Positions 30,672 through 36,581 of a DNA stretch of 64,000 bases are shown in pieces. A program made the translations under genes and the position numbers. Positions within the stretch are counted from its first letter, which is position 1. The number at the start of each line of letters is the position of its first letter. Below the pieces are notes generated by a model that searched no databases, was not told the origin of the DNA, and was given only the letters and a program-made list of their open reading frames with translations. The stretch comes from Gammaproteobacteria bacterium (GTDB lineage Bacteria > Pseudomonadota > Gammaproteobacteria > Enterobacterales > Alteromonadaceae), in assembly GCA_018222405.1 (NCBI GenBank), contig JAAFAI010000015.1, positions 1-64,000 on the forward strand, read 5' to 3'.

Positions 30672-31310
30672 ATGTACAAAAAGTTCAAACAAATTTGCAT
30701 CTTTTTTTCCGGCTGGGTAATTTTTTTACCAATAGTGATCACAGGTTGTGCCACCACGCCGCCAAAAGATACCAGCAATCTTTGTGAGATCTTTTACGAA
30801 AAGGAAGACTGGTACGATGCGGCGGCCGACATGCGTGATAAATGGGGCGTGCCCATCCACGTGCCTATGGCCATGATGTACCAGGAAAGCTCTTTTCGTC
30901 ACGATGCGCTGCCGCCCCGCGATTACATTCTCTTCGGACTCATTCCCTGGGGCAGGGTGAGTTCGGCTTACGGCTATTCTCAGGCCAAAACGCCCACCTG
31001 GAGCGACTACATTCGCGAAACCGGCAATTCCGGCGCTGACCGTGATGATTTTGAAGATGCGATAGACTTCATGGGCTGGTTTATAAGTAAAACCCATAAA
31101 GTGAATGGTGTCTCAAAATGGGATGCCTACGCGCAATACCTCAATTATCATGAAGGGTGGGGTGGCTACCGACGCAAAACTTATCTCAAGAAGGGGTGGC
31201 TGGTAAAAGTCTCCCAGCGAGTTAAGGGCCGTTCACTGCGCTATGCTACGCAATTAAAAACCTGCGAAGAAGATCTGCAGAAAAGCTGGTTCTTCAAGTT
31301 ATTTGACTAA
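30672..31310 (+). CDS. SLT-domain (lytic transglycosylase-like) lipoprotein
   Basis: Protein of 212 residues with a signal sequence ending in ITGCATT, a lipobox, so probably a lipoprotein. The core has the SLT-type catalytic glutamate in PMAMMYQESSFRHDA, followed by SAYGYSQAKTPTW and NYHEGWGGY, an arrangement like lytic transglycosylases that cleave peptidoglycan glycan strands. It is short and lacks other domains, resembling EmtA-like enzymes only in outline. It is transcribed in the same direction as gshA but is separated by a hairpin and 65 bases. Confidence 0.8.
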   Translation: MYKKFKQICIFFSGWVIFLPIVITGCATTPPKDTSNLCEIFYEKEDWYDAAADMRDKWGVPIHVPMAMMYQESSFRHDALPPRDYILFGLIPWGRVSSAYGYSQAKTPTWSDYIRETGNSGADRDDFEDAIDFMGWFISKTHKVNGVSKWDAYAQYLNYHEGWGGYRRKTYLKKGWLVKVSQRVKGRSLRYATQLKTCEEDLQKSWFFKLFD

Positions 31311-31342: not shown

Positions 31343-31375
31343 AAAAAAAAGCAGGCGGGCAAAGTGCCCGCCTGC
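31343..31375 (-). terminator. Rho-independent terminator of the small RNA
   Basis: Minus strand: GCAGGCGGGC-ACTTT-GCCCGCCTGC followed by eight T (31350-31343). The stem is ten perfect pairs. On the plus strand the run would be A8 before the stem, so this terminator is oriented for minus-strand transcription, not for the SLT gene ending at 31310. Confidence 0.85.
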
Positions 31376-31427
31376 CAGAAGTGGGATTCCGTCCAAGACC
31401 GTAAAATTTCCGGAAACCCAACAGGCA
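31343..31427 (-). ncRNA. Candidate Fur-regulated small RNA
   Basis: On the minus strand, a promoter overlapping a Fur box (31446-31460) is followed within ~85 bases by a strong intrinsic terminator, with no ORF between. The predicted RNA starts near 31427. Its 5' part can fold into a stem pairing 31419-31411 (GGGTTTCCG) with 31391-31383 (CGGAATCCC), eight of nine pairs, with a loop of 19 bases. The 3' end is a 10-bp GC stem and eight T. Size, position of the Fur box and layout are those of RyhB/PrrF-type iron-responsive RNAs, but no sequence similarity to E. coli RyhB was recognised. Targets are unknown. Confidence 0.62.
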
Positions 31428-31432
31428 TTTTT

Positions 31433-31461
31433 ACTCTAATCTAAATGATAACTATTATCAA
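31433..31461 (-). promoter_or_regulatory. Promoter with embedded Fur box
   Basis: Minus strand: -35 TTGATA (31461-31456), 17-base spacer, -10 TAGAGT (31438-31433). The spacer and -35 overlap the plus-strand palindrome TGATAACTATTATCA at 31446-31460, which differs at one position from the 7-1-7 Fur motif TGATAATNATTATCA. Fur bound here would block the minus-strand promoter. The box could also affect the divergent DUF3149 gene. Confidence 0.72.
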
Positions 31462-31623: not shown

Positions 31624-31749
31624 ATGTGGTCAATGTTATTAAAAGATCCAGTGGTATGGGGCTCATTACTTGGCATTTTTATCGTATGCGTAATGATGGC
31701 GTATTACACTTACTTATTCATCCACAACAGCGGTGATGACCATAAGTAA
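31624..31749 (+). CDS. Small membrane protein, DUF3149-like
   Basis: Protein of 41 residues: a short lead with LLKDPVVWGSLLG, one hydrophobic helix (GIFIVCVMMAYYTYLFI) and a polar end HNSGDDHK. The DPVVWGSL segment followed by a single helix resembles the DUF3149 family of tiny gammaproteobacterial membrane proteins, whose function is unknown. The ATG at 31624 has AAGGTG upstream; a longer reading from 31522 has no such support. It shares its upstream region with the candidate Fur-regulated RNA. Confidence 0.68.
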   Translation: MWSMLLKDPVVWGSLLGIFIVCVMMAYYTYLFIHNSGDDHK

Positions 31750-35739: not shown

Positions 35740-35864
35740 AATACTTTCTCATAGTGAGGTAAAGCCTTAGCTCACCGCAAATAAAAAACTGACCTGTTGA
35801 CCAGTATAATTTGGTGGATTTTCAAAGAAGAATTAAGCCAGTTTGTTTTCAGGGAGAATTTAAG

Positions 35865-36581
35865 TTGGCTCGCCGTCCAAGGATATTGGTTCCAAATATG
35901 CCCGTACACGTTGTTCAACGCGGGAATAATAAACAAGCATGCTTTTTTCAGGGTAAAGATTATGCGGTTTACCTTAAAAAGCTTAAAGCGTGTGCAGAAA
36001 AATTTAATGTGCAGATACATTGTTTTGTCTTAATGACAAACCATGTTCATTTACTATTGCAAGCATCAGACTATGAGGGCATTAGTCATGTTATGCAGAG
36101 TTTAGGGCGTTATTATGTTCGCTATTTCAATACCACTTACAACCGAACTGGCACGCTTTGGGAAGGCAGATTTAAATCAAGTTTGGTGGACTCTGATGAG
36201 TACCTGCTGCAGGTTTACCAATATATAGAATTAAATCCTGTCAGAGCAAAAATGGTAGATCATCCAAAAGATTACGTATGGAGTAGCTATCATGCAAACG
36301 GAGGTAATAAAAATATTGCTATGATAGAGCCTCATTCTCTCTATTTATCCCTCGGCATTGACGCCGAGAGTCGAAAATTGGCTTATAACCGTCTTCTCGA
36401 CAACTCGTTATCAAATGAGTTATTGAACAAGATTAGATTATCAATAAATAAGTCCAGGGTGCTGGGCGATGATAAATTTGTAAAGCAGATATCCGCAAAG
36501 CTTGAACGCTTTGCCGGATATCTTGAACACGGAGGGGATAGACGCTCTGAAGAGTTTAAGGAATGGCTTCAAAGAATCTGA
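35865..36581 (+). CDS. REP-associated tyrosine transposase (RAYT)
   Basis: Single-strand Y1 transposase of 238 residues. The N-terminus ARRPRILVPNMPVHVVQRGN is the family signature, the metal-binding HUH motif appears as MTNHVHLLL, and the later YQYIELNPVRAKMV segment contains tyrosines including the candidate nucleophile. The TTG at 35865 is chosen because GGGAGAA precedes it and the signature starts immediately after; the upstream in-frame codons have no support. The gene is AT-rich compared with its neighbours, as expected for an inserted element, and its stop codon lies within the right inverted repeat. The reading frame is intact, so the element may still be active. Confidence 0.9.
   Translation: MARRPRILVPNMPVHVVQRGNNKQACFFQGKDYAVYLKKLKACAEKFNVQIHCFVLMTNHVHLLLQASDYEGISHVMQSLGRYYVRYFNTTYNRTGTLWEGRFKSSLVDSDEYLLQVYQYIELNPVRAKMVDHPKDYVWSSYHANGGNKNIAMIEPHSLYLSLGIDAESRKLAYNRLLDNSLSNELLNKIRLSINKSRVLGDDKFVKQISAKLERFAGYLEHGGDRRSEEFKEWLQRI

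Follow-up and report, generated by a model that had tools for sequence, protein, structure and literature searches.

The window analysed here, 64,000 nucleotides of DNA from a species that belongs to Alteromonas in GTDB's sense and lies near A. alba and A. oceani (judged by the named relatives of a neighbouring protein), carries a putative small RNA (sRNA) locus on its minus strand. On one flank of the sRNA are the gene for glutamate-cysteine ligase (gshA) and a gene with an SLT_4 domain, the latter pointing toward the sRNA; on the other flank is the DUF3149 gene named in a first-pass annotation of this DNA, pointing away. The locus comprises the following features.

31456..31461, minus strand: −35 hexamer TTGATA (consensus match only)
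31446..31460, no strand assigned: Fur box (7-1-7 motif, one mismatch) over the promoter, recognised by motif and by the same position in 44 of 49 distinct homologues
31433..31438, minus strand: −10 hexamer TAGAGT (consensus match only)
31343..31429, minus strand: small RNA of about 86 nt (fold, covariance model matches, covariation)
31419..31428, minus strand: unpaired 5′ tail AUGCCUGUUG, including proposed seed 1, UGCCUGUU (sdhC; sodB in some other species)
31382..31420, minus strand: stem-loop 1, with a covarying stem (6 of 9 pairs changed on both sides)
31393..31402, minus strand: apical loop ACGGUCUUGG, proposed seed 2 (acnB; sufB in two other genomes)
31343..31376, minus strand: intrinsic terminator, 12-pair stem and eight T (fold; covarying)
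31624..31749, plus strand: gene for a DUF3149 peptide (41 aa; Pfam E 9.7e-8), divergent neighbour
30672..31310, plus strand: SLT_4 transglycosylase-domain gene, convergent with the sRNA

The first-pass annotation had proposed a minus-strand promoter, TTGATA-N17-TAGAGT, overlapping a near-perfect Fur box, and both are present: the two hexamers are separated by a spacer of 17, and the Fur box, TGATAACTATTATCA, has one mismatch to the 7-1-7 consensus TGATAATNATTATCA. This is the sole site with ≤1 mismatch in the whole 64 kb, in which sites with up to 3 mismatches number 7 compared with 2.84 expected. Six promoter-like sites occur in 3 kb where 3.8 are expected, so the promoter by itself is weak evidence. 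A Fur box with ≤3 mismatches lies upstream of 47 of the 49 distinct homologues described below, compared with 21 of 980 shuffled upstream sequences, and its distance from the RNA is constant in the 44 that share its position. A Fur box kept over the promoter is a trait of Fur-repressed iron-sparing sRNAs and, as far as a sequence motif can tell, supports the earlier reading of the locus as an iron-responsive sRNA.

The 5′ end of the sRNA was placed from the −10 hexamer and from conservation. At the other end, the eight T of the terminator are as had been described, but the stem has 12 pairs, 9 of them G-C, rather than the 10 bp claimed; the two hairpins reported downstream of the promoter are one stem-loop plus this terminator, in an RNA of about 86 nt where about 85 had been claimed. 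The U-rich terminator is compatible with dependence on Hfq. A second strong Fur-box-like stretch lies in the same genome (L002; G000:C39:45313-45348) beside other genes, and matches like it occur, also beside other genes, in loci L030, L031 and L011 of relatives. In the window itself, positions 35811-36581 (plus strand) hold an ORF that we take to encode a REP-associated (IS200-like) transposase.

Distribution and fold of the RNA

An exact two-block pattern was found in 35 of 59 genomes of the genus, compared with no matches for a reversed control pattern, indicating conservation above chance. The first-pass annotation had suggested a covariance search in related genomes; a model built from 18 sequences (R1) located the sRNA in 58 of the 59, G006 being the only genus genome without a match. 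Across the family, R1 had matches in 17 of 246 genomes, and a wider model (R2) in 44 of 395, 31 of them in the genus and 13 outside it. On reading, nine of these 13 have the Fur box, tail, loop and terminator (seven in genus g29 and one each in g61 and g34), and the four weak ones (G235, G134, G377 and G402) were rejected because they lack a Fur box with tail and loop. Among short matches in 27 of 60 genomes (35 rows), many span the Fur box alone and were left out of the homologue count.

We also examined 80 named loci around the SLT_4 gene. The sRNA lies just beyond that gene in 33 of them (62 bits or more); two further matches (19 and 15 bits) were left uncounted, and the remaining 47 loci gave no match with R2. 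A DUF3149-like motif follows downstream in 28 of the 33 loci with the sRNA, and one of the five without it (L067) has only 195 bases left. In genus g29, the sRNA adjoins other genes; we therefore regard DUF3149 as a neighbour only and reject a link. In the g34 locus (L214), a divergent gene that we take to be fumC, for the iron-free fumarase, starts about 580 bases from the sRNA homologue. The sRNA of G012 has in its vicinity a cspA thermoregulator RNA (L149:1751-2121, minus strand; Rfam RF01766, 93 bits).

The predicted folding energy of the transcript is −37.4 kcal/mol (z −4.32), and none of 200 shuffled sequences was equally stable. Covariation was assessed on 63 matches comprising 49 distinct sequences; their alignment was guided by a model with this very structure, which biases it in that direction. 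Standard pairs fill 95.3% of cells in the 49 distinct sequences, where shuffles give 75.0 ± 0.8%, and both sides are altered in 196 cells, compared with 54 in shuffles; none of 500 shuffles equalled either figure. Pairs with at least one both-side change number 15, an unremarkable count that 84 of the 500 shuffles also attained. As a control, we slid one strand by 1–3 columns, and pairing fell to 34–43%. Stem-loop 1 and the terminator stem both covary, and when sequences are folded one at a time, nearly all form these two hairpins. A lack of stem conservation in relatives had been named beforehand as one of the results that would overturn the sRNA reading; the stems are conserved, and they covary.

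The most constant parts of the sRNA are the unpaired ones: the tail UGCCUGUU is exact in 46 of the 49 distinct homologues and the apical loop ACGGUCUUGG in 41. A fixed tail and loop on drifting stems are expected if the tail and loop touch something else and the stems only hold them in place. A short non-coding RNA with a conserved fold and an intrinsic terminator is again what is seen among Fur-repressed iron-sparing sRNAs.

Complementarity to iron-enzyme messages

We compared both seeds with the leaders of three classical iron-sparing targets, sdhC (13 genomes), acnB and sodB (12 genomes each), in 72 seed-leader tests in all. The sequence ACAGGCA directly precedes the GTG that we take as the sdhC start in all 13 genomes, within AACAGGCA in 11 and UACAGGCA in two, and AACAGGCA is the exact complement of the sRNA tail. 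The match between the tail and the sdhC ribosome site is found in every genome examined and spans 6–9 bp, with 6 bp in G200; in G118 the sRNA tail reads UGCCUGUA, a compensatory change that restores an 8-bp match. Tail energies at sdhC had p ≤0.022 in 12 of 12 genomes (compared with 1000 shuffled seeds). The tail energy at sdhC is reached at 3 of 50 gene starts and 108 of 3454 stretches in the window, and is thus not rare by itself; what carries the case for sdhC is the position of the match, its conservation and a single compensatory change.

The loop also faces sdhC, the codons 4–7 of which hold GACC(A/C)GU. In G299 and G200, the sRNA loop ACUGGUC faces GACCAGU; in G118, CGGGUC faces GACCCG; and in Alteromonas, the pairing is mainly that of AAGACC with GGUCUU. 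Loop energies at sdhC were mostly not significant across 12 genomes (p 0.035–0.67), and loop pairing there was weak in Alteromonas (p 0.037–0.67).

In a scan of the window's own genome, AACAGGCA followed by ATG occurred at 91 sites, compared with 14 for the reversed control, an excess that we do not use as evidence because coding sequence uses the two patterns differently. Of these 91 sites, about four read as plausible gene starts (L299, presumably for a small protein; L302, presumably alanine-dehydrogenase-like; L317; and L252), none of them for an obvious iron enzyme.

In the acnB leaders of nine Alteromonas genomes, a complement of the loop ends 30–47 bases before the start codon, and loop pairing had p ≤0.024 in all nine. 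The match is upstream of the Shine-Dalgarno sequence and reaches 10 pairs or more in several species; in G060 it runs over UUGACGGUC, which corresponds to that genome's own loop flank. The window's species has CCGGGACCGU as its site, which needs two G-U pairs to match the loop, and its loop value is reached at 0 of 50 gene starts and 7 of 3454 stretches in the window. Several of the acnB sites are located apically in a hairpin of the leader, the stem of which varies by species (CCTG/CAGG, TTGCG/CGCAA), and in single-sequence folds the site is open in some species and partly paired in others. Of the genomes from three other genera, only G200 has a good site (p 0.007); that of G118 is weak (p 0.08), and the acnB leader of G299 has none (loop p 0.35). 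A second aconitase-B-like gene, in G013 and G017 (L334 and L335), has two copies of TAAGACCGA, a near-complement of the sRNA loop, in its leader about 15–60 bases before the start. The best loop value among gene starts of the window, −17.2 before an Rnf-Nqr gene, was dropped because the sequence looks coding.

The first-pass annotation had suggested target prediction against sodB and TCA-cycle messages, among others. Two of the latter, sdhC and acnB, show pairing; sodB does not in the window's species, for which we reject it as a general target (p 0.79 for the tail and 0.26 for the loop, with no convincing site). Strong tail sites at sodB were limited to three of 12 genomes (G013, G010 and G012; p ≤0.004).

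Conserved complementarity to iron-enzyme messages is a further trait of the iron-sparing class. An alternative is that the RNA is Fur-controlled but has its role elsewhere, on other targets or as a sponge for another sRNA, and that the sdhC and acnB matches come from seeds that resemble an anti-Shine-Dalgarno sequence. The tail and loop do contain CCU and UCUU, and tail energies like that at sdhC recur at the 3 of 50 window gene starts given above. However, this alternative does not account well for finding ACAGGCA at the ribosome site of sdhC in every one of 13 genomes, with a pair that covaries in G118, for the small fraction of AACAGGCA-ATG sites (about four of 91) that are plausible gene starts, or for an acnB match of this length upstream of the Shine-Dalgarno sequence. 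We consider it improbable, and retain the reading of the locus as an iron-sparing sRNA that would act on sdhC and acnB.

We also scanned five genomes, without preselecting genes, for the 9-mer CAAGACCGT, the complement of the loop. It occurred at 135 sites, compared with 231 for the reversed control, and is thus not enriched overall; the window's own genome has 14 sites compared with 92 for the control, none of them at a ribosome site. We read 90 of the 135 sites, leaving out 34 of G017 and 5 of G031, with six further sites being the sRNA itself or acnB already covered. Among the 90, one (L365) is the sRNA itself, and long reading frames contain most of the others. Between genes and ahead of a gene that could be recognised, there was one site at acnB (L376) and two at sufB. 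Five sites were judged doubtful: L358 (G010) precedes a small ORF, L361 and L422 lie just inside a possible coding start, and L398 (G012 only) and L424 are 70 bases before another ORF but within an upstream frame. The gene downstream of L398 is presumably BolA-like.

The two sufB sites are L420 in G013, 81 bases before the start codon, and L436 in G031, 64 bases before it, the identity of SufB being assigned by NCBIfam on the N-terminal part. Both leaders contain complements to both seeds, with CAGGCA before the start, and the loop site of G013 sits in a hairpin loop. The sequence upstream of sufB in these two genomes resembles what we take to be an IscR site. In A. macleodii, transcripts of the SUF genes and of fumarase C are reported to rise under iron limitation (PMC7190382); plain repression of sufB by the sRNA therefore does not fit. 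The sRNA may instead act at sufB as a brake on a rising message, or as an activator.

Relation to known RNAs and coding potential

RyhB of enterobacteria belongs to the same class of Fur-repressed small RNAs, and its targets include superoxide dismutase and iron enzymes that belong to the TCA cycle. In contrast to RyhB, the sRNA described here has its proposed seeds in the 5′ tail and the apical loop, and lacks sodB pairing in the window's species. PrrF of Pseudomonas shares the overlapping Fur-box promoter, the short RNA and the terminator. The first-pass annotation had described a layout like that of RyhB and PrrF with a sequence unlike E. coli RyhB, and we agree: the Rfam RyhB model had no match at its gathering score in the window or in eight homologue loci, and was absent among 19 matches with E up to 10.

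Descent from a gammaproteobacterial ancestor shared with RyhB or PrrF, with the sRNA as a divergent member of one of those families, would explain the common layout and function class, and in a permissive Rfam scan PrrF (RF00444) had the most bits (22; E 0.076). However, another family had a lower E-value than PrrF, and 22 bits is far below the PrrF gathering score of 90; indeed, the window contains no match at gathering score to any Rfam family, and neither does the sRNA in the eight homologue loci, where the one match is the cspA element elsewhere in L149. The alignment to PrrF runs mainly through the terminator and the Fur-box promoter, the latter being outside the sRNA in our case, and neither conserved seed was found in the portion of the PrrF consensus compared. 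Moreover, which family gives the best, still weak, match depends on the homologue (PrrF, tfoR), with the sRNA of one relative matching tfoR best (24 bits, gathering score 70, E 0.0004) rather than PrrF or RyhB. Since gathering scores were not reached, we reject membership of RyhB or PrrF, and regard such an ancestry as quite improbable.

Least probable is that a small protein, starting at the ATG at 31428, is expressed from the Fur-box promoter, with the hairpin merely its terminator: the window's species does have an open frame with an ATG at the very 5′ end of the sRNA, but that ATG is kept in just 27 of the 49 distinct homologues, and its spacing from the loop core varies across all three frames, so that no frame is conserved and this is not a peptide gene, while the stem covaries as RNA and there appears to be no space for a ribosome site ahead of the ATG. 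As to the earlier statement that the region has no ORF, this ATG and a 40-codon TTG frame do lie over the region, but neither frame nor ATG is kept, and we reject a coding ORF in the sRNA.

NrrF of Neisseria and HrrF of Pasteurellaceae are, as the sRNA here would be, lineage-specific Fur-repressed RNAs, from which the lack of an Rfam gathering-score match sets it apart. A title cited in PMC4144887 ties NrrF to sdhA and sdhC, and Fur-repressed iron-sparing RNAs of unrelated sequence, such as HrrF, are a known kind (PMC4144887). Within the genus, 127 chromosomal sRNAs were mapped in A. macleodii Te101, among which Aln1a-c are CsrA-binding RNAs (PMC5864184); that paper never uses the word 'iron' in its main text, and the sRNA described here may already be on its list without a role. 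A search of open-access papers yielded none that names an iron sRNA in Alteromonas. The sRNA, its two-seed layout and its family therefore appear to be new, whereas Fur-repressed iron-sparing RNAs are known as a kind.

Proposed function

The computations yield a conserved RNA, a covarying fold, a Fur box and conserved complementarity, and we put the probability at roughly 85% that the locus encodes a Fur-repressed, trans-acting iron-sparing sRNA of ~86 nt that works like RyhB, PrrF or NrrF. When iron is present, Fur-Fe(II) would cover the sRNA promoter; when iron is lost, the sRNA would be transcribed and would end at its terminator. The tail UGCCUGUU would then pair in the cell with AACAGGCA at the ribosome-binding site of sdhC, possibly helped by the loop pairing to the first codons, and the apical loop ACGGUCUUGG would dock on the acnB leader, where the apical position of the site in several species would allow a loop-loop contact. 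In some species the loop may also pair with the sufB leader. Pairing may require Hfq, and the direction of regulation is presumably downward, with less succinate dehydrogenase and aconitase B expected when iron is short. In A. macleodii, an RNA-seq study (PMC7190382) reports fewer transcripts for most enzymes of the citric acid cycle under iron limitation, and respiratory transcripts are also cut.

A more elaborate version of the iron-sparing reading, which we offer tentatively and think rather unlikely, is a two-headed regulator, in which the tail blocks ribosome sites (sdhC) and the loop kisses the leader loops of Fe-S messages (acnB, sufB), lowering aconitase and succinate dehydrogenase while opening the sufB leader. 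If this were true, Fe-S assembly would go up while iron use falls, and stems would be expected to drift on both sides while the kissing loops stay fixed.

Most ocean regions have extremely low levels of dissolved iron, and the marine bacterium A. macleodii is genetically tractable (PMC7190382). With an RNA that is spread across the genus and has defined seeds and named candidate targets, the role of an sRNA in the iron response of Alteromonas can be tested directly in a harmless laboratory strain. The sRNA would be another unrelated RNA in the role of RyhB, and its homologues would document joint changes of loop, tail and target.
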